A stretch of DNA of 64,000 bases from Oscillospiraceae bacterium. Its GTDB lineage: Bacteria; Bacillota; Clostridia; Oscillospirales; Acutalibacteraceae. Of this stretch, positions 4,943 through 58,619 are shown piece by piece (the stretch's first letter is position 1; each line of letters opens with the position of its first letter). The notes under the pieces are model-generated. The model was not told the origin of the DNA. It saw nothing but the letters and a program-made list of their open reading frames with translations, and did no database searches. The stretch covers positions 1-64,000 of the forward strand of contig SVOY01000008.1 of NCBI GenBank assembly GCA_015066105.1, read 5' to 3'. Made by a program: the position numbers and the translations under genes.

Positions 4943-4992
4943 TATGGTGTATAAAATGGAATGAGTGTAACTTGTTCAAGGAGGTTTTTTCA

Positions 4993-5733
4993 ATGCAGAA
5001 AAACTTGTTCAAAAAGTATATGTCAGTGGCTTTATCGGTGCTGATGCTTTTGTCCTGCTGGGTGTGGGCGGCACCTGCCGAGGCTGATGCAATTACTGAT
5101 ACCGTTGCTTCTCATACGGACGAAGATAACAACGGATATTGCGACTCCTGTGATGAATTGATTTGTGAACACGCTGAAACCGAAACCGTTGGCGAAAACC
5201 CCGCAACCTGTGAGTTTGACGGCTATACCGGTGATAAGGTGTGTGTGAAATGCGGCCTTACTGTTGAAAAGGGTAGTGCTGTTGCTGCTTACGGCCACAG
5301 CTTCGGCTCGGCACCCGTTCAGACTGTTGAAGCAACCTGTAAAAACGGCAGAACACTTGTTTATAAGTGCAAAAGCTGCAGCTATACCTATTCTGAGGTA
5401 GTCAGTGGCTACGGCCCTCATCGTATTGTTGTTGTGGAGGATACGGCTCCCACCTGCGATAAGCCCGGCTATTATGTGCATTTCTGCCTCACCTGCGATA
5501 CCTCGGTTCAGGTAATCGAAACAGAGCCCACCGGCCACGTTGATGAAAATTTTGACGGTGCTTGCGATGTGTTCGGCTGCGGTGCTGTGGTTGAAACCGC
5601 ACGTTCAACCAAGTGCTCCTGCATTTGCCATAACGATAATCCCTTTATGCAGTTTATTTATAAGCTTGTCAGCACTTTCTGGAAGCTGTTAGGTGTAAGT
5701 CAGGTTTGTGATTGCTCAGCAGTACACTATTGA
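4993..5733 (+). CDS. Secreted Cys-repeat protein with C-terminal CxCxCH/HY tail
   Basis: About 246 residues. Start chosen at ATG 4993, which has AAGGAGG 8 bases upstream; an in-frame TTG at 4972 would overlap that site. An N-terminal signal peptide (basic MQKNLFKKYM, hydrophobic core, AAPAEADA) predicts export. The mature part has about five repeats of roughly 30-40 residues built on a CxxC pair and a preceding Cys, each ending near Gly-His, such as CVKCG, CKSCS and CLTCD. The last ~40 residues hold CSCICH, an aromatic amphipathic helix (FMQFIYKLVSTFWKLLG) and CDCSAVHY. I recall this tail from other clostridial secreted proteins, where its role is unknown; metal binding or surface retention is possible. 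It is a single gene with its own promoter and terminator. Confidence 0.85.
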   Translation: MQKNLFKKYMSVALSVLMLLSCWVWAAPAEADAITDTVASHTDEDNNGYCDSCDELICEHAETETVGENPATCEFDGYTGDKVCVKCGLTVEKGSAVAAYGHSFGSAPVQTVEATCKNGRTLVYKCKSCSYTYSEVVSGYGPHRIVVVEDTAPTCDKPGYYVHFCLTCDTSVQVIETEPTGHVDENFDGACDVFGCGAVVETARSTKCSCICHNDNPFMQFIYKLVSTFWKLLGVSQVCDCSAVHY

Positions 5734-16317: not shown

Positions 16318-16557
16318 CAATATTGTAAAGCAATGAGCGGGAGGAGTAATTCTCCGCAGCCTTTTCAGAGAAAAGACGGTTGGTGCAAGTCTTAAGGCAA
16401 GGGAATGAAGGTCGCCCGTGAGCTTCGGGAAGAAAGAGTAATTGAGTAGACCCCGACGTATGTCCGCGTTAAGGCTTTTGAGTGCAGAGGTTAATTCTCT
16501 GAATTCAGGTGGTACCACGGAAATTTCTCCGTCCTGATTTTACAGGACGGAGTTTTT
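16318..16557 (+). ncRNA. T-box riboswitch (tRNA-Val sensing) of valS
   Basis: A leader of about 240 bases with the conserved T-box core AGGTGGTACCACGG (16507-16520). A terminator (CTCCGTCCTG 16527-16536 / CAGGACGGAG 16543-16552 plus T-run) directly follows. The T-box bulge can pair with the uncharged CCA end of tRNA. A GTC triplet at 16411-16413 in the distal part of stem I fits a valine specifier; that assignment is my reading, not a fold. Low charged tRNA-Val should favour antitermination and valS expression. Confidence 0.92.
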
Positions 16558-49281: not shown

Positions 49282-49286
49282 CTATT

Positions 49287-49325
49287 CGCACAGGGTGTTT
49301 TATATCCTGTGCGTTTCTGCATTTT
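49287..49325 (+). terminator. Terminator of the symporter gene
   Basis: CGCACAGG / CCTGTGCG with an 11-base loop, followed by TTTCTGCATTTTT. Confidence 0.75.
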
Positions 49326-49436
49326 TATAGAAAAAATAACGATTAAATTGTTAACTAAATGTAAACATAAGCTGATAACTATTTAACTTTAACTATATAT
49401 ATGTTAAAATACACATGTATATAAGATGGTGTCTTT

Positions 49437-49577
49437 ATGTGTCTTTTCGGTAATTTTTTCAGCAGGTTAACCGATGTTTTTCCTGCAAAGCAGATAGCTT
49501 TACAACTGTTAAGATATTTGCTTTACAGGAACGATTTCCCGGATATGGCTGACAAGTTAAAAGCTTTACTTTTTTAG
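49437..49577 (+). CDS. Possible 46-residue small protein upstream of the giant gene
   Basis: ATG 49437 to TAG 49575. The product starts MCLFGNFFSRLTDVFPAKQ and ends DMADKLKALLF; it is mildly amphipathic with a hydrophobic start. It follows a TATGTTAAAAT box by about 30 bases. The ribosome site (AGATGGTG) is weak. No homolog is recalled. A hairpin with AGCTTTTCGG / GCTGAAAGCT arms follows at 49576. It may be real, a leader peptide, or chance. Confidence 0.3.
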   Translation: MCLFGNFFSRLTDVFPAKQIALQLLRYLLYRNDFPDMADKLKALLF

Positions 49578-49818
49578 CTTTTCGGTCAAGCCTTGACAAG
49601 CTGAAAGCTTTACAAAAAAGTGTGCAAAAGAGATGCCGTATACAATAATAAAAACCTTTTTGTTATTTAATGTTTTTAAAACATAAAATATAAAACGGTT
49701 GATATGGGAGGATTGATAAACTTACCGTCGGTTCCCGTTTGGCTTGCGGGAGTTGACAAAAGTGGGAGCGTGGGCTCCTTAAGCAAATTCAAAGAAATAA
49801 TTTTAATGGAGGAAAAAC
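49578..49818 (+). other. Unassigned leader of the giant secreted protein
   Basis: 240 bases without a convincing gene. It starts with a hairpin around TCAAGCCTTGA (49589-49599). Before the gene are two GC-richer stem candidates: TCCCG...CGGGA (49731-49749) and GGAGCGTGGGCTCC (49766-49779), the first preceded by a decoy GGGAGG at 49705. The true ribosome site is TGGAGG at 49808. This could be a structured 5' leader; it matches no riboswitch consensus that I know. Confidence 0.4.
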
Positions 49819-52800
49819 ATGAAAGTTACCAAAAAACTTTTATCCGTGCTTTTGTCAATCATTATGATTATGACAAGCATGAGCGTATGCTTCGGTACCT
49901 TTGTTGTGCCTGCTGCAGCTGAAGATGTTGACTATACTCAGCAGCTTGCTGATAAGCTCAAGGACAGTGCATACGCAGACACACTTGCTCTTCTCGGTAA
50001 AAGCACCAAGAGTGGTAGCAAATTAGCACAAACCACAACTGTTACTTTCAGTAGCTACAAGAACTTCAAGCAGGCTGCTGAGCTTCTTCGTCTTGTTCAC
50101 AATGCTATGAAGCAGACAGACTCTTACAAGAAGGCTTACGACTTTGCGAACGGTCTTGACAGTAACAGTAAGACCGACCAGGCTGCTGCTTGTAACGGTG
50201 CTAACACCAAGAATCTTTATGATGATATCATTAAAGGTCTTGAAAAGAAGAGTGTTACAATCGACACAAACATCACAACATTCATTGGCAGTGTTTACCA
50301 TATGGACGGTGCTACCGCTCATAACAAAGACTCAAACGGTAAGAGCTCTCTTTCGACATGGAAAAACACTGTAACATATTCAACAACTGACTACAAGGGC
50401 TACCTTGCTCAGATTGGTAAGGCATCAGCCGTAGAGTCATCTGCTGAAATGGGTGTTCAGTATGTTATTCAGATGCAGGGTAATCTTTACTACAAAGACG
50501 GTTGCGATAAGAAGTATCACCATCAGATCTGGCTTGAAAATACAGATATCGCAGCTCCCTCAACTTCATCAACAAACACAGAAATGAAGTCAAAGGTTAA
50601 TGCTCACATTTCAGAGCTTGAAAGCTTCATCAACATCACCTATGCTGAAATGCTTGCAATGAGCAAAACCGCACTTGACAACAAGGTTTCCGAGCTCGAT
50701 ACTGCTATTTCAAATGCAGTTACATATTGCGGCGCTCAGTCAACCTATGATGCTCTTTATGCTGACTATGCAGCGGGTATTGCTAATTTCCGCACATCGA
50801 TTCAGTCAGCAAAGGACTTTGCAAACTTTATGCCCACAGTTGATGCTTGGAATGCTTTTGTTGAAGCTAATCCCAATTACGGTGTATTCCAGTATCCCAA
50901 CTTCGGTGTTAAGGGCTCAGAAGGCCACACAAACCTTCTTGCCGATTATGCAACCTTCAAGGCATACCGTGATTACCTCCTTACCGGTGGTTCAATTTAC
51001 GATTACCTTGTTGATTACAATTACATTGACGAAGCCTACTACACCAACTTCTACGATAACGTAGTTGCTTATGACCTTCAGGACTCAAAGGATGCAGCTG
51101 ATGCTCTTTATATTCAGTATGCAGCTTCAGTTGCCGATGTAGAAGGCGAAGCAGAAATGACTCTTGAAGAAAAGACGATTGTTTACAACGAATTCTGCGG
51201 CTTTATCAATAATATCGGCAACTATTCAGACCAGGTTGTAGCTGCTGTTTATACAGACGGCTGGCAGTATCTCATCGATATGAGAGAATACTTCAAGTGT
51301 GAAATCAATCCTGCAGTTCTTTATTTTGCTGAAAATGCATATAAGACCTTTACGGAGTTGAGCACAACGGCTCTTTGGGATGAAATCAATGTTGCAAAGG
51401 GTCATCAAGCAGACCTTACAGCTCTTTATAATGAAGTAAAGACTAACATCGGTCAGGATAAGGCTGACAGTCTTCTTTCAGGTCTCAGAGCTGATGCTAC
51501 AACAATGATTGAGAATCTTTATAAGACTCTTGCAGACCGCTTTACTCTTGAAGTAAACAATGCATGGGACGTTTACGTTGCCCTCGGCAAGCCCACAGCT
51601 CTTAAGGTTGATACCTTCCTTCAGCTTTCAGCTGTTATGGTTGCTATTGAGCCCTCAATCCTTACAGACCTTCAGGCTGCAGGTAAGGCAGGTTATATCA
51701 CTCAGACAACAATCGACAGATATAACGAGCTTATGAAGGTAGGCGGCATCTATGAAATCTGGAACGCTTATGCTTCAACCTTCGGCTTCCCCGACTATAA
51801 GCAGACTGAGATTAAGTATGATGACCGTATTCCTATGGAAGGCGATGAGCTCAAAACAGCTAACGACCCCGTAACAGAGGCAGAAATGCTTAAGCTTATT
51901 GAAGCTCTTGACACAATCATCACAAGTGACACAGTCGGCAATCTTCTCGGCGGACTCCTCGGTGCAGAAGAAGGCGAGGGCTTTGACCTCGGTGCAATGC
52001 TTACAGACCTTATAAAGGGCGCACTCTTTACTGACGACTTCATCAACACAGTTGTTCAGATGCTCTATCCTCTCGTTCTCGGTGAGTTCGATAAGGTATG
52101 GGCAACCCTTCCTATCACTGTTACCTACTCAGGTATGAACATCAAGGTTCAGTATGAAAAGACTCTTCATACTATCCTTAAGGAAGGCGAATTTGAAATT
52201 TATCCCGACCTTCTCGCGTCAAGACTTGAAAAGCGCGATCAGTCAACAAAGTATGCTGATAACATTGCTCTTCTCAAGGCAGCAGGCGGCGAAGCTGACT
52301 CCTGGGAGTCACCCAAGCTTGTTGATGTTGAAACAGGTAAGCTCAAGCTCTCATGGGGCGTAACAGAGCAGAAGGAAAAGCTTGATGCAGGTGAAATCAC
52401 ACAGGCTCAGTTTGATAAGTTCTTCTATGATGCATTCGAAGATGCTACCTCAGGTCTTCTTCCTCTTCTCACAACCCTTATCACAAACAAGGCATGGACA
52501 CCTGCTAAGTGCGAGGATATCGGTAAGGCTAATGCAACACTTCTCACTCTTAATATCTCACTTCAGCTCGGTTCAAGAGCTACAAGCGGTTACGCCAATA
52601 TGCTTGTACCCATCTACGAGCTTCTCGGTGTTCCCTACACAGCTGTATCAACAATTGAAAGCAGCACATATAACTCAGACGTTTCATACGTTCTTGAACA
52701 GATTCTTACTCCTGTCTTTACATTCCTCGATAAGCTCGGTGACGCACCCGTAGATACACTTCTCGAGGTTCTTCCCGACCTTGTTTATGCTCTTGCATTC

Positions 52801-55800
52801 CGTATGGCTAAGCCCATGCTCAATATGCTTAACTGTGACATCACATATGATGCTTCAGCAACACTTGTTGGCTCAGTTCTTGCTGACGGTGCTTACATTG
52901 CAGTCGGTGACCTTCTTATCGGTAACGAAGAAGACAAGCTTCTTAAGGAAGAAATGTTTGCAGGCGGTCTCAACTCAATCCTTGCATTCTTCGGCCTCAA
53001 CATTCCTGCAATCGACCAGGCTAAGCTTGCTACTCTCGGTGAGCTCACAACAATGAGCACATCAAGAAAAGCATGGATTTATGACAATTCAGCTATCGCT
53101 GCAAATACAGCTTACACAATCAAGGCTGATAAGGCTGACGTAGCCTACTATCTCCTTTCATACATTCTCGGCATCGTTAAGGACGAAGCTTCACTCAGAC
53201 AGCTTCTCAGTCTCTTTATGACTAAGGAGGATGAGAACGGCGAAGCAGTTGCCGATACAGAAGCTATCGATGCACTTATTAACGACACTCTCTACAATGA
53301 CGAGGGTCTTAACCTTGACGAAATCAACACAGGCAATGCAATCGCAGCTATCGTTGAGCTTGCAAATCAGATTGAATACGGTGTTGATCCTTACACATGG
53401 TATGCAGGCGAATATGATTCACCTGTCGGCACATCAGCAGCAGAAATTTACCTCAATCCCAACAATGACTGGACGGAAGACAAGGCTCAGTACCTCTATG
53501 ACAACCTTGAAAATCTTCTTGCATCAATCTTCACAATGGCAAAGCTTGACCTTGATGCCGAAGCTGAAGGTGTTCAGACATCAATTGAGGATGCACTCGG
53601 CGTTGCAATAAACGGTCTCTTTACAAATGAAACCGTAACGGCACTTGCTAAGCTTCTCGGTTCACTTTCAGACCTCGAAGCACTTCTCGCAGGCGGCGAA
53701 GAAACACCCGACGCAAACGAGCCCGAAACAGTTGAAGAAGGCGAAGAGGAAGCAGCAGGTCTCAACATTGCTGAAATTCTTAATGACCTTCTTGTTAACG
53801 AACTCGGCATCGACCTTTCGGTTTATGCTCAGTATGCTGATATTGCTGAAGGCGAAGTAGTTGACTTTGGTGTAACAGATGCAGAGTCATTTGCAGCAGC
53901 TCTTACAGAGCTCCTTGCTCCTCTTAAGAATGTACTTGACTTCATCCTTGGCGGTAAGGACCTTACCCTTATCGACAGCGCAATCACACTTCATGGCTAT
54001 AAGGGCTATGACAACGCAATTATTCCTCTTCTTGAGGCTCTCGGTGCAACTCCTGCCGCTTACACAGAAGGCGCAGACACACTTGCACTTACACTTGATG
54101 CACTTGTTGGCGTAATCAACAAGCTTACAACAAACGATCCCGCAGTGGATTATGACGGCGCTATCTATACTATTATTGATATGCTTCCCGGCGTTCTCTA
54201 CTATATTTCAAGTAATGCACTTTCACAGGGTGTAGATAAGCTTCTCACTCCCGTATATGCAGTTCTTGATACAATCCGTCCCATCTACAATGTTAACCTC
54301 AGCGAGCTTCTTGCAGGTATTGAAGTTGACCTTGATAAGGACGGCGTTAAGGAGTCTCTCGGCCTTGACCTTAAGAATCTTGACTGGACCTTCATCTTCG
54401 GTCTTCTCAACGACCTTCTCGGTCTTGACCTCAGCGCTCTTAAGCAGGTTATCTATGATGTATCAAAGGTAATCGGTGAAGAGTATAACTCAGCATCAGC
54501 TCTTCAGAGCACTTGGAAGAAGGGTGCATACAACGCAAACTTCTCTCAGGCAGATATGCTCACCGTTATCCTTTCATTTGTTCTTGAATGGGCAACTGTA
54601 AAGGAAAATGCTGATAAGCTTGATGAGCTTCTTAAGACAAACGGCATCATCGCTTCACTCAACACAGTATTTGCTGATGTTGAAATCACCTACGGTACAC
54701 CCGACTGGGCTTACTGGTTCTCAACAGAAGACGAATTCAACGCATATCTTGCAGGCGATGCCAACATTCCCAATACACTCGCAGCTCTCGATTGGGAGAA
54801 CATTGAAAGCAATGATTGGAACCTTGAAGCAGCAAAATACTTTGCAGACAACCTTCCCGAGCTTGTTGACCTTATCATCGGTATGATTAACAAGGACAAG
54901 GTTGACGAAGACGGCAATGCGCTTCCCACCAATCTTTCAGACCTTCTCAGTGGTCTTGTGAACGGTCTCGTTAATGCCGAGACAATCAACAGCCTTGTTG
55001 GTATGCTCACAAATCTCCTTGCAGACATTGACGAAAATCTTATCAACACTGCAGGCTATCTCCTTGATATTGACCTTGCAGGTCTTAAGGCTTACACCTG
55101 CAAAGCAGAAATCAACACAATCAGCGACTTCATCAACGAGCTCGCAGTTGTACTTGATACATATGCAGGCGGTCTTGTAAACTGGCTCTTCTTCGGTGAT
55201 GACTACAGATTTGCCAAGAAGTCAGACAGCACAGACACAATCGTAATCAACGGCGGCCTCGGCTATGAAAAGGGTCTTGCAATGATTCTTGAAGCACTTG
55301 GCTGTGAGCTTCCCGAAAAGCCTGACACCAAGTCAGTTCTCGGTGCACTTGCAACAAGAGTTGAAGAAATTTTTGCTGCTCCCGTTGACGAGATTATCGA
55401 GCTTCTTCCCAACCTTGTTTACTTCCTCAACGCAAACGGTGCAGGTGTTGCAGTTGACAACCTCCTTAAGCCCGTTAACGCACTTCTTACAAAGCTTCAG
55501 GCATTCGGCCTCAACGTAAACCTCAACGAGCTCATCGGTATTGACCTTGCAGAGCTTTCACTTGAAAACGTTGTAACAATCGTTGAAGGTGCAACCGACC
55601 TTCCCCTTGATGCCGCAGAAAACATTCTTGTAAACTTCTGCACAGGTAAGATTACAAAGGGCGAATTCATTTACAAGATGGAAGCAGCCGAAGAAGATGT
55701 AATCACAATTCTTCTGGTTGTTGCACTTGAGCTTGTTTCAGATGATGCATTTGCAGCTAAGCTTGACGAAATGCTTGGAACAGACTTCATCGCACAGCTT

Positions 55801-58572
55801 AAGAATGTATTTGCCGGTGTTGAAATTGATTACGCTTCTCCTGAGTGGGAGTATCCTCTTGCTGATAACGGTACAGTTGATGTAATGAAATATGCAATTA
55901 CTTATCCCAACAACTGGACTGAGGCTACAGCTCAGTACGTAGCTGACAATCTTCCCGAAATTGCTGACCTTATCGCTGGTCTCATTGACAGCAACTACGA
56001 TTCACTTTCAGCTCTTCTTAAGGCTAATGTGAATGTATTCACAGGTGAAACTCTCGAATCACTTGTTTCAAGCATCACTAATCTTCTCGGCGGTATTGAT
56101 GACGGACTTCTTGACGCTGCAGGCGTGCTTCTCGGTGCAGACGTTGTAGGTCTTAAGAAATACGAGGCTCCTGCGGGCATTGATACAGTTGATGAATTTG
56201 CAGCAGAGCTTGCGAATATACTCAATACTCACGCAAAGGGCATTGTGGAATGGCTCCTTCTCGGCGATGACTACAATATTCTTGTTAAAGATGCTGACGG
56301 TATCGGCGAAGGCCTTGTAACTGAAGGTTCATACATTACAGTTACCGGTGCAGACGGTTACGCAGAAGGTCTTGCACTTCTTCTTGAAGCACTTGGCTGT
56401 GAAGATCTTCCCGCCGCTGACGGTGCAACAGAAGAAATTGTAACAGGCGTTCTCACTTCTGTTGCAGAGCTCATCAACAAGATTCTCGACAATCCTGTTG
56501 CAACCGTTCTTGACATTCTTCCCAACGTTCTCTACTTCCTCAATGCAAACGGTGTTGCAGCTGTAGTTGATAACACTCTTGCAGCAGTTACCGCTCTTAT
56601 TGAGAAGCTTGCAGTATTTGGCGTTAACGTTGATATCAACTCACTTGTAAACATCAAGTCACTTCTTAAACTCGGCGATGAAGCAGCAATCAGTCTTGAT
56701 AACCTTTCAATGGCAGCAGTTCTTGAAGCAGTTTCACTTATGGTAGGTCTTGACCTTACTCTTATTGAAGACGTGCTTGTAGGCTTTGCTCTCGGTGAGG
56801 TTAAGGAATACGATTCAGTAAGTGCATCAGCTGCTTATAAGATGTCTTACAAGGATGAGTTTGATAAGCATGACATGGTAACAGTTCTTGTTAACCTTGT
56901 TCTTCTCACTATCGCAGACGAAGACAACGCAGAGTTCGTTAAGGGTCTTGTAGGCGAGGCTGCTTACACAGTAATTCTTAACCTTTGCAACGGTGTAGCT
57001 CCCGTAGCTATTCAGGAATTCGATTGGCAGTTCACTGATAAGGCAGATACCGGTGAAGTATTCTCAGCTTTTGAAAGCTCAGAACTTTACGAGGGTTATT
57101 CTTACGGTCCTCTTTACACCGAGGAAATGGCTGAATACATTGCTGACAACTTCGGTCAGTTTGTTGATAACATCCTTTACCTCCTCGGCATCAAGATTAA
57201 CGGTGTAGCAGTTAATAACCTTACAGACCTTATCAACGGCTTACTTAACGGCTCACTTTACAACAGCTCAAATGTAATCGCAATCCGCGATGCACTTGCA
57301 GGCGTGCTTGCAGGTATTGAAGACCTTGAAGTGAACGGTAAGAATGTTGGTAAGTACATTGCAGCAGTTCTTGCAAACTCAGAGGTTGCTGACATTTCTG
57401 CAGTAGCAGATGTTGAGGTTCCCGAGTTTACTGAGGACAGAGAGCAGTTTGTAGCATCACTTTGCGATGTTCTTGAGCCTCTTTATCCCGTTCTCAAGTG
57501 GTTACTTGCTGACGATGACATTGCATTCTTTGTAGACCTTGAAAAGAATGACCTTATCAAGCTTGAGGGTGCTGAAGGCTACGCTTACGGTATCATTCCT
57601 CTTCTTGAAACACTTGAGTGTGAAGGTATTCTTGCTCCCGCTGATTACAATGCAGCAGTTGATGAGGACGGCAGCGTTCTTCTCACATCAATCCTCAATC
57701 CTCTTCTTGACAGAGTGGATACAATTGTTGCAGATGATCCTGCATCAGCAATTCTTGCAATGCTTCCCAACATCATTTACTTCATCAACTCCAACGGTGT
57801 TGATACAGTAATCAAGAACACACTCAATGCGGTTTACACACTTCTCAGTGCTATTGAGCCCATCGCAGCAATCGATCTCTATGAGCTTCTCGGTGTTGAA
57901 TTCCTTGAAACTCTTGATTTCGAAACTCTGTTCCAGATGCTTCTTGACCTTATTGCTGACGCAACAGGCTATAAATTTGAAAACATCGATGCAAGTGCAG
58001 TTGAAGAGCTTACCGTAGGTACACTTGAATCCTACACATCTCTTAACGAAAAGACTGCATACAAGATGGTTTACAACGAAGAAGCTTCAAAGGATGAGAT
58101 GGTAACAGTAGTTCTCAGACTTCTTGTAACCTTCATTATGCATGAGAACAACAGAGAAATGCTTCTTGGCCTTCTTAAGGATAACTTAGGTATGAGCGAG
58201 GATGCAGAAGGATATCTCCGCGGCGTTCTTGACAGCATTGCTTCACTTGCAACTGACACATACCTCGGTATGGATCAGGCACTTGCAGTAATCTACTATC
58301 TGTTCTACAGTGCAGATATCGGCTCAGCAGAGCTTGTAAACGGTATTAAGGATATCAACGCTGAGTGGCAGAACATTCTCAAGGAGCTCAGCAGATCAGA
58401 GGATCCCGATGAAATCACAATCGGCGACTTCCTCGGCAACTTCCTTGATAAGTATATGGAAGATGTATTTACCTCAGATGGTATTGCTCCCAACGGTCTT
58501 ATCGCATTCTTCCAGAGAATTATTGAATGGTTCAACAAGATTGTTGCATGGTTTAAGGCTCTTATGGCTTAA
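49819..58572 (+). CDS. Giant secreted repeat protein (2917 residues)
   Basis: The largest gene in the window. Signal peptide: basic MKVTKK, hydrophobic core, predicted cut after PAAA (residue 34). Residues ~35-900 are mostly helical with coiled-coil character. From ~920 to ~2720 about five divergent repeats of roughly 365-470 residues follow. Each has a GY-x-x-(G/A)-(I/L)-x-x-LLE-x-LG block (near 923, 1395, 1815, 2180, 2587) and a LP-(N/D)-x-(V/L/I)-Y-(F/Y/A) block. Four copies of a W/Y-x-E-x-A-x-Y-x-x-DN helix precede the last four. The composition is acidic and Leu/Ala-rich. There is no LPXTG, dockerin, S-layer or enzyme motif. The C-terminus is an aromatic amphipathic helix (FFQRIIEWFNKIVAWFKALMA, 21 residues, described here as ending WFKALMA). 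Codon use looks more biased than in neighbours, suggesting high expression. It is probably a surface or extracellular structural or adhesive protein; function unknown. Confidence 0.85.
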   Translation: MKVTKKLLSVLLSIIMIMTSMSVCFGTFVVPAAAEDVDYTQQLADKLKDSAYADTLALLGKSTKSGSKLAQTTTVTFSSYKNFKQAAELLRLVHNAMKQTDSYKKAYDFANGLDSNSKTDQAAACNGANTKNLYDDIIKGLEKKSVTIDTNITTFIGSVYHMDGATAHNKDSNGKSSLSTWKNTVTYSTTDYKGYLAQIGKASAVESSAEMGVQYVIQMQGNLYYKDGCDKKYHHQIWLENTDIAAPSTSSTNTEMKSKVNAHISELESFINITYAEMLAMSKTALDNKVSELDTAISNAVTYCGAQSTYDALYADYAAGIANFRTSIQSAKDFANFMPTVDAWNAFVEANPNYGVFQYPNFGVKGSEGHTNLLADYATFKAYRDYLLTGGSIYDYLVDYNYIDEAYYTNFYDNVVAYDLQDSKDAADALYIQYAASVADVEGEAEMTLEEKTIVYNEFCGFINNIGNYSDQVVAAVYTDGWQYLIDMREYFKCEINPAVLYFAENAYKTFTELSTTALWDEINVAKGHQADLTALYNEVKTNIGQDKADSLLSGLRADATTMIENLYKTLADRFTLEVNNAWDVYVALGKPTALKVDTFLQLSAVMVAIEPSILTDLQAAGKAGYITQTTIDRYNELMKVGGIYEIWNAYASTFGFPDYKQTEIKYDDRIPMEGDELKTANDPVTEAEMLKLIEALDTIITSDTVGNLLGGLLGAEEGEGFDLGAMLTDLIKGALFTDDFINTVVQMLYPLVLGEFDKVWATLPITVTYSGMNIKVQYEKTLHTILKEGEFEIYPDLLASRLEKRDQSTKYADNIALLKAAGGEADSWESPKLVDVETGKLKLSWGVTEQKEKLDAGEITQAQFDKFFYDAFEDATSGLLPLLTTLITNKAWTPAKCEDIGKANATLLTLNISLQLGSRATSGYANMLVPIYELLGVPYTAVSTIESSTYNSDVSYVLEQILTPVFTFLDKLGDAPVDTLLEVLPDLVYALAFRMAKPMLNMLNCDITYDASATLVGSVLADGAYIAVGDLLIGNEEDKLLKEEMFAGGLNSILAFFGLNIPAIDQAKLATLGELTTMSTSRKAWIYDNSAIAANTAYTIKADKADVAYYLLSYILGIVKDEASLRQLLSLFMTKEDENGEAVADTEAIDALINDTLYNDEGLNLDEINTGNAIAAIVELANQIEYGVDPYTWYAGEYDSPVGTSAAEIYLNPNNDWTEDKAQYLYDNLENLLASIFTMAKLDLDAEAEGVQTSIEDALGVAINGLFTNETVTALAKLLGSLSDLEALLAGGEETPDANEPETVEEGEEEAAGLNIAEILNDLLVNELGIDLSVYAQYADIAEGEVVDFGVTDAESFAAALTELLAPLKNVLDFILGGKDLTLIDSAITLHGYKGYDNAIIPLLEALGATPAAYTEGADTLALTLDALVGVINKLTTNDPAVDYDGAIYTIIDMLPGVLYYISSNALSQGVDKLLTPVYAVLDTIRPIYNVNLSELLAGIEVDLDKDGVKESLGLDLKNLDWTFIFGLLNDLLGLDLSALKQVIYDVSKVIGEEYNSASALQSTWKKGAYNANFSQADMLTVILSFVLEWATVKENADKLDELLKTNGIIASLNTVFADVEITYGTPDWAYWFSTEDEFNAYLAGDANIPNTLAALDWENIESNDWNLEAAKYFADNLPELVDLIIGMINKDKVDEDGNALPTNLSDLLSGLVNGLVNAETINSLVGMLTNLLADIDENLINTAGYLLDIDLAGLKAYTCKAEINTISDFINELAVVLDTYAGGLVNWLFFGDDYRFAKKSDSTDTIVINGGLGYEKGLAMILEALGCELPEKPDTKSVLGALATRVEEIFAAPVDEIIELLPNLVYFLNANGAGVAVDNLLKPVNALLTKLQAFGLNVNLNELIGIDLAELSLENVVTIVEGATDLPLDAAENILVNFCTGKITKGEFIYKMEAAEEDVITILLVVALELVSDDAFAAKLDEMLGTDFIAQLKNVFAGVEIDYASPEWEYPLADNGTVDVMKYAITYPNNWTEATAQYVADNLPEIADLIAGLIDSNYDSLSALLKANVNVFTGETLESLVSSITNLLGGIDDGLLDAAGVLLGADVVGLKKYEAPAGIDTVDEFAAELANILNTHAKGIVEWLLLGDDYNILVKDADGIGEGLVTEGSYITVTGADGYAEGLALLLEALGCEDLPAADGATEEIVTGVLTSVAELINKILDNPVATVLDILPNVLYFLNANGVAAVVDNTLAAVTALIEKLAVFGVNVDINSLVNIKSLLKLGDEAAISLDNLSMAAVLEAVSLMVGLDLTLIEDVLVGFALGEVKEYDSVSASAAYKMSYKDEFDKHDMVTVLVNLVLLTIADEDNAEFVKGLVGEAAYTVILNLCNGVAPVAIQEFDWQFTDKADTGEVFSAFESSELYEGYSYGPLYTEEMAEYIADNFGQFVDNILYLLGIKINGVAVNNLTDLINGLLNGSLYNSSNVIAIRDALAGVLAGIEDLEVNGKNVGKYIAAVLANSEVADISAVADVEVPEFTEDREQFVASLCDVLEPLYPVLKWLLADDDIAFFVDLEKNDLIKLEGAEGYAYGIIPLLETLECEGILAPADYNAAVDEDGSVLLTSILNPLLDRVDTIVADDPASAILAMLPNIIYFINSNGVDTVIKNTLNAVYTLLSAIEPIAAIDLYELLGVEFLETLDFETLFQMLLDLIADATGYKFENIDASAVEELTVGTLESYTSLNEKTAYKMVYNEEASKDEMVTVVLRLLVTFIMHENNREMLLGLLKDNLGMSEDAEGYLRGVLDSIASLATDTYLGMDQALAVIYYLFYSADIGSAELVNGIKDINAEWQNILKELSRSEDPDEITIGDFLGNFLDKYMEDVFTSDGIAPNGLIAFFQRIIEWFNKIVAWFKALMA
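52580..57900 (+). repeat. Five divergent coding repeats inside the giant gene
   Basis: The conserved GY...LLE-x-LG block recurs at about 52586, 54003, 55264, 56359 and 57580, spacing 1095-1420 bases. The W-x-E-x-A-x-Y-x-x-DN block recurs at about 53470, 54820, 55915 and 57115. Units are similar at protein level but clearly diverged, so the duplications are old. The third and fourth units are the closest pair (LEALGCE, LPN-x-LYFLNANG). Confidence 0.75.
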
Positions 58573-58583
58573 TCATGAGCTTT

Positions 58584-58619
58584 ATCACACCGCCGTTAAT
58601 TCGGCGGTGTGATTTTTTT
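58584..58619 (+). terminator. Terminator of the giant gene
   Basis: ATCACACCGCCG / CGGCGGTGTGAT, 12-bp perfect stem with 6-base loop, then TTTTTT. Confidence 0.95.

Follow-up and report, generated by a model that had tools for sequence, protein, structure and literature searches.

A lineage-restricted family of long repeat proteins with recurrent helical C-terminal tails in Oscillospiraceae

Results

A 2,917-residue ORF with an ATG start, found at 49819-58572 (+) in a 64,000-nucleotide stretch of Oscillospiraceae bacterium GCA_015066105.1 (contig SVOY01000008.1, positions 1-64,000, hereafter the window; the source genome is labelled G000), belongs to class A of a family of repeat proteins. 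It has no relatives in Pfam, NCBIfam, PHROGs or the PDB sequences, and the statement in a preliminary description of this DNA that the protein has no known domain holds for these four collections. The unit is repeated within the protein, the family is restricted to one lineage in the genomes sampled, inner units have been amplified, similar tails recur on other proteins of the genome, and a small relative forms a conserved gene pair with an ABC/FtsX transporter. With about even confidence, we infer that the ORF product is an abundant, exported, polyanionic surface scaffold, kept at the membrane face by its C-terminal helix.

The gene and its product

The ORF is separated from a sodium:alanine symporter gene by a 537-nt leader (49282..49818, +), in which a strong ribosome-binding site, GGAGG, is read directly at 49807-49811 (+). 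The leader has no match in Rfam and shares only short similarity with the leaders of orthologues, the best being the ribosome-binding site itself and one stretch of 37 bases. An intrinsic terminator, a 12-pair stem followed by a T run, lies at 58584-58613 (+); leader and terminator had both been pointed out before, and both stand. Codon use had been judged typical of strong expression, and the CAI of 0.528, calculated with the EF-Tu gene of the same genome and no other gene as reference, is indeed the highest among the 20 window genes tested.

The protein starts with a signal peptide (residues 1-34, 49819..49920, +; cleavage site placed by eye), and its orthologues, as well as a 10,378-residue paralogue from the same genome, have starts that resemble it. 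The N-terminal region that follows (residues ~35-735, 49921..52023, +), about 700 residues long, shows partial conservation confined to the nearer orthologues in blastp searches with residues 1-880. The acidic, Leu/Ala-rich composition reported earlier is borne out (D+E 15.5%, K+R 5.8%, L 13.1%, A 11.2%), and the net charge is -284, with -990 for the 10,378-residue giant and -49 for a small paralogue of ~870 residues. The last 60 residues contain no LPXTG-like motif, in agreement with the cell-wall sorting signal having been described as absent. Three sortase genes are present in the genome, so a standard anchoring route exists, and the ORF lacks the signal for that route.

The genes flanking the ORF in the window are unmatched by the flanking frames of named class-A loci. 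In three related genomes, an LGT-like integral membrane gene is found 60-216 bases upstream of the class-A gene (L061:1244-2152, by Pfam; L062:1255-2082 and L066:71-967, by eye), a position at which the window has none. Elsewhere in the window, at 16324-16539 (+), a T-box leader (Rfam, 140 bits) lies just upstream of an 873-residue ORF that is probably an aminoacyl-tRNA synthetase.

Five diverged repeat units

About five diverged repeats of ~400 residues had been proposed behind the signal peptide, with an iterative profile search as one way to check them. The iterated profile finds five cores, each of ~155 residues, together with two weak partial matches between cores (residues 1208-1288 and 1654-1750). 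The cores occupy residues 859-1018 (52393..52872), 1349-1498 (53863..54312), 1762-1906 (55102..55536), 2118-2277 (56170..56649) and 2537-2691 (57427..57891), all on the plus strand. An independent profile, made from 12 class-C units and no window sequence, recovers all five at 34.0-92.2 bits, and the best of 300 shuffles of the ORF scores 2.2 bits with the same profile. The core starts are spaced by 490, 413, 356 and 419 residues, giving diverged units of ~355-490 residues. The motif blocks originally noticed are present but less regular than described; the strict form of GY...LLE occurs in three places and that of W-x-E-x-A-x-Y in two, so that a profile is needed to see all five units.

Each unit consists roughly of a helical lead-in, a core with the motifs GxxGY...PLLEALG and LPNLxYFI, and a second hairpin with helices. 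In 123 units, conservation of at least 90% is seen at positions holding F, G, G, Y, L, P and N, a pattern more suggestive of a scaffold than of an active site. The last unit of the ORF reaches up to 70% identity to the last units of other class-A proteins; the other four cores are 21-34% identical to the last core of the ORF itself.

Pfam returns no family for the ORF at E <= 1, and hence no SLH or other wall-binding domain and no lectin, carbohydrate-binding or Ig-like domain. The last three kinds are likewise absent from the giant over the 9,773 of its 10,378 residues searched, where Pfam gave three sub-threshold matches, all to families other than FIVAR/GA (lowest E 0.0027). A single AlphaFold2 model of the last two units plus tail, with both of their cores (residues 2080-2917, 56056..58569, +; 91 sequences), is mostly helical with short beta hairpins (pLDDT 86.3, pTM 0.75), and Foldseek finds no match to it at E <= 0.001 and no clear PDB counterpart. 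No paper found in the open-licence literature names the repeat family or the helical tails.

Paralogues, distribution and classes of relatives

On contig C17 of the source genome (2.48 Mb, 85% complete), the minus-strand frame at 68480-99613 encodes the giant paralogue, 10,378 residues long. This frame has 17 profile matches, 15 of which were taken into the unit tree, a tail resembling that of the ORF and a CAI of 0.55 against EF-Tu; glycosyltransferase and UDP-sugar dehydrogenase genes adjoin it. Directly upstream is the gene for an exported protein of 2,409 residues (C17:100032-107258, minus strand; also L013:2032-9258) with a weak List_Bact repeat match and a tail of the Cys/His type described below. 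The small paralogue, on contig C8, has two units, a C-terminal transmembrane segment followed by a basic tail, and a CAI of 0.278.

Among 200 sampled genomes of the GTDB family, the core was detected in 32, representing 20 of 135 genera (E <= 1e-5), and the longest open frame containing it had 10,516 residues. The order sample gave three of 295 genomes: besides the source genome, these are a second member of its family and a genome from a different family that has just one match; in the class sample, the source genome was the only one of 391. A peptide pattern matched 113 stretches in named genomes, 101 of them encoding a relative, and none of its 26 matches on viral contigs was confirmed. The best 80 of the 101 relatives form 76 named loci, some of which overlap on one contig or come from near-identical genomes; their titles give Clostridia, Clostridiales, Oscillospiraceae, Ruminococcaceae or genera placed there, and many are from ruminant gut.

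The named loci contain 71 frames complete at the C end, and seven further frames, cut at that end, fall outside this count: 24 are of class A, 14 of class B, one of class A with a Cys/His tail, 26 of class C (including L069, an assembly-gap fragment), four of class D and two of class E. In class B (giant type) and class D, the locus boundary truncates the frames on the N-terminal side. Classes A and B end in an aromatic helix, class C in a transmembrane segment or basic tail (25 of 26) and class E in a sortase-like signal, but the ending was itself the criterion for class, so the two do not vary independently. The class E proteins, L087 and L091, are two-unit relatives of 919-920 residues that end in PTGD, a hydrophobic segment and a basic tail. 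A rule for signal-peptide-like starts recognizes 37 of the 47 frames with a complete N end; two of the other ten are broken by assembly gaps, and eight, by eye, have a hydrophobic start but no suitable ATG.

Class-D genes are overlapped at their ends by a frame of 332-392 residues that combines a hydrophobic segment at the N-terminus with a recurring domain of no described kind (L088:11068-12243, L089:11086-12084, L090:4082-5077 and L097:11062-12129). By eye, a frame of this type also lies downstream of the ABC gene in L169. In the source genome, the gene that overlaps class D has only a weak partial match (E 0.009).

Of the 24 proteins whose 135 cores were placed in a tree, ten are of class A; the first units of seven of these group with one another and with the giant's first unit (support 0.90). 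In the remaining three, the first core listed is placed elsewhere, perhaps because the true first core fell under the score filter. A second cluster (support 0.99) is formed by the last unit of the ORF with those of four near relatives. Between these ends, units 3 and 4 share one clade, in which L066 has a third copy, and units 8 to 14 of the giant alternate between two tree groups, as expected if growth proceeded by two-unit blocks. The units of two class-D proteins, of which eight and nine are visible, cluster with the class-C first unit, while the last of them join the class-C second unit; class D hence looks like an amplified class C. The tree thus points to amplification of inner units between conserved ends.

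A conserved gene pair in the small relatives

For 23 of the 26 class-C entries, alignment to an ABC/FtsX gene starts within -27 to +25 bases of the point where the class-C frame ends. This partner is a single chain that combines ATPase and permease (in L014, ABC_tran PF00005, E 8.1e-35, and FtsX PF02687, E 5.7e-19). The two-unit class-C protein itself matches no Pfam family at E <= 0.01, and so no HlyD-like domain. Two of the unpaired entries are the fragment L069 and L136, whose contig ends 135 bases on; the third, L133, is a real exception, a class-C-like gene with no such ABC gene nearby. Viewed from the transporter, a class-C protein is encoded upstream of all 12 ABC orthologues (at least 58% identity, at least 886 residues; 11 called by profile and one, cut by the contig, by eye) and of none among the 18 retrieved loci that ranked next. 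Matches occur in 82 of 200 genomes, and the 30 loci represent part of them; outside the 30 are two shorter matches, one at a second place in G060 (57% identity) and one in G070, a genome with no core match, where the ABC match is partial (60% identity over 417 residues). Genomes such as G002 and G008 encode long repeat proteins although no ABC match reaches the threshold used, so that long proteins do not need the pair.

In the source genome, the small paralogue is preceded on the opposite strand by a MarR-family gene, and 12 of 15 upstream frames inspected in other loci appear regulator-like by eye (MarR 8, TetR 4). The transporter is unmatched among the frames flanking class-A and class-B genes; its link is to the small paralogue, not to the ORF.

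Two kinds of C-terminal tail

After a GIAPNG segment, the ORF ends in the aromatic amphipathic helix that the preliminary description had noted (residues 2893-2917, 58495..58569, +), recognized by tail alignment, helical moment (0.63, p=0.003 against shuffles) and the structure model, where its block pLDDT is 63-73. The class-A tail consensus, from 14 of 25 tails including that of the ORF, is NGxIxFFQKIxxFFQKIIDWFKNLF, and class-B proteins end in ESLNWFQRLIKKIKEFFQKIFSIFK or near variants. Thirteen tails or helices have moments above those of same-letter shuffles (p 0.000 to 0.029), three of which, at 0.39-0.48, are inside the ordinary range given by the C-termini of 32 other window proteins (mean 0.34, maximum 0.55).

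A profile of this first tail has 13 matches in the source genome at E <= 10, one being the ORF. Seven of the other 12 are C-terminal, two N-terminal and three neither; E falls below 0.001 for just three of the 12, and the case for the weaker matches depends on where they lie. The C-terminal matches are a Big_2 protein on C13 (E 9.7e-5), a 73-residue frame on C21 (E 2.8e-4) that has no signal peptide, and frames on C4 (0.08), C23 (0.11), C10:193151 (0.30), C10:543048 (0.44) and C8 (5.8). Export-type starts are seen for C4, C8 and, by eye, C10:543048, those of C13, C23 and C10:193151 lying outside the DNA examined. The N-terminal matches, a BD-FAE-like esterase (C10:31200, E 8.5e-4) and a C6 protein (C6:29564, 0.07), indicate that the helix is not confined to C-termini. 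An aromatic helix of similar type also occurs at L061:11300-12235.

A second tail has C-x-C-x-C-H, or a variant, before its helix and C-x-C-G-x-x-H-Y, or something near it, after (CxCxCH...FFWKLF...CxCGxxHY). A profile of three sequences, among them the window gene at 4972-5733 (+) and the 2,409-residue gene beside the giant, finds 12 matches in the source genome at E <= 1, of which nine reach E <= 7.1e-7. The nine are frames of 99 to 3,613 residues, in the window at 4972-5733 (+) and on contigs C17, C8, C10, C26 and C1, with the tail no more than ~14 residues from the C end. Five have a signal-peptide-like start (the window gene, C17, C26, C1 and C10:52742), three start outside the DNA examined, and the 99-residue frame shows none. 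In the orthologue L083, the Cys/His tail replaces the aromatic one. Pfam and NCBIfam searches of seven proteins or pieces bearing either tail place no family on the tails. The likeness of the two suggests that both may be one kind of anchor, with the Cys/His form possibly stabilised by metal or disulfides.

Discussion

The export signal, codon bias, negative charge, amplified inner units and differing C-ends together argue for a surface scaffold held at its C-terminus. The protein would be exported by Sec through its N-terminal signal peptide, and outside the cell its five ~400-residue helical units, with their short beta hairpins, may form an elongated chain. The aromatic amphipathic helix would be the last part to leave the Sec channel and could then sit in the outer face of the membrane, or bind an envelope partner, keeping the protein attached to the cell. 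The unit from which it is built also makes up the 10,378-residue version and the weakly codon-biased two-unit version with its transmembrane anchor, and the ABC/FtsX transporter may power coat assembly, release or sensing. The long genes, unlike the anchored one, have a strong codon bias, which supports an abundant ORF product. A surface fibre, adhesin or matrix protein had been suggested at the outset; that the ORF encodes a large exported repeat protein outside the families in the libraries is upheld, and a surface location is supported only indirectly, by the C-terminal membrane or sortase-like anchors of relatives and by similar tails on other proteins, several of them with export signals.

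Glycan binding is common in large repeat surface proteins of gut bacteria, and an adhesin, with the repeats as a stalk and with binding to host mucin, plant glycans or other cells by either the units or the little-conserved N-terminal region, would fit the ruminant gut source of many named loci, the recognition of the N-terminal region in fewer relatives than the last unit, and the sugar-related genes beside the giant. The lack of any lectin, carbohydrate-binding or Ig-like domain in the ORF, or in the part of the giant searched with Pfam, speaks against this explanation, which we consider fairly unlikely. The tight pairing of the two-unit relative with the ABC/FtsX gene, the regulator-like frames upstream and the strong negative charge could instead mean that the units bind a hydrophobic or cationic ligand, a lipid or peptide, with the long proteins as sponges for the transporter; yet no transporter match flanks class-A or class-B genes, and Foldseek offers no counterpart at E <= 0.001 for the modelled units, which leaves such substrate handling improbable.

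The tail could also mediate self-assembly or receptor binding instead of membrane binding. Were it to self-associate after release, the protein would build an extracellular matrix rather than a membrane-held coat, as a short, amphipathic, aromatic tail and, by eye, the absence of a classical transmembrane segment at the end of the ORF would allow. Relatives, however, carry membrane or sortase-like anchors at the same position, and similar helices occur at the N-terminus of two other proteins, making a released matrix protein distinctly improbable. A chance or decayed reading frame is refuted by conservation and can be put at next to nothing, given the many relatives with intact frames, the identity between last units from different genomes, the strong codon bias and the matches to the independent class-C profile.

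Beyond the membrane-held scaffold, a wider and more tentative reading, on balance doubtful, is that a lineage of uncultured gut Oscillospiraceae has a surface-building system of its own, in which one undescribed fold gives abundant coat fibres of 3,000 and 10,000 residues and a two-unit membrane protein driven by a dedicated ABC/FtsX motor, and a new C-terminal helix anchor, found in forms that have Cys/His brackets and forms that do not, holds the coat and many other exported proteins. From the two kinds of helical tail, it seems that gut Clostridia may retain proteins at the cell in a way not recognised so far, one that would change how their surface proteins are predicted, and the gene pair offers a testable handle on possible coat building.

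S-layer proteins are acidic, have more Lys than Arg and few Cys, and show strong codon bias. The ORF shares all of these traits, but unlike SLH-type S-layer proteins it has no SLH or other Pfam wall-binding domain. Ebh is a giant surface protein of Staphylococcus aureus built from short helical bundles of the FIVAR/GA type. The present family is likewise repeat-built and giant, but Pfam finds no such repeats in the ORF or in the part of the giant searched, and its unit is ~400 residues long. Giant bacterial surface proteins are already known, but the present family is absent from the domain libraries searched and has a ~400-residue unit of no clear known fold so far. In passages of PMC11573180, a giant helical surface protein of S. 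aureus is given almost 10,000 residues and 5,000 residues is the mark for "huge" proteins; the 10,378 residues of the giant, in a genome of 2.5 Mb, are twice that mark.

Giant1-5 of Apilactobacillus kunkeei, as presented in passages of PMC12863079, are exported proteins of 3,000-8,000 residues with long helical repeats, encoded in one genome, and resemble the present proteins in these respects and in a possible stalk or surface role. According to the same passages, Giant1-4 have beta-solenoid N-terminal domains and Giant1-5 SH3b-like C-terminal domains, whereas the ORF has no Pfam domain and ends in an amphipathic helix; ABC pairing, present here for the small relative, goes unmentioned in those passages. 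MacA-MacB and FtsX-type ABC systems likewise have a membrane-anchored extracytoplasmic protein encoded beside the ABC/FtsX gene. The present pair differs from MacA-MacB in that ATPase and permease share one chain, and the partner, which matches no Pfam family at E <= 0.01, shares its units with the giants.
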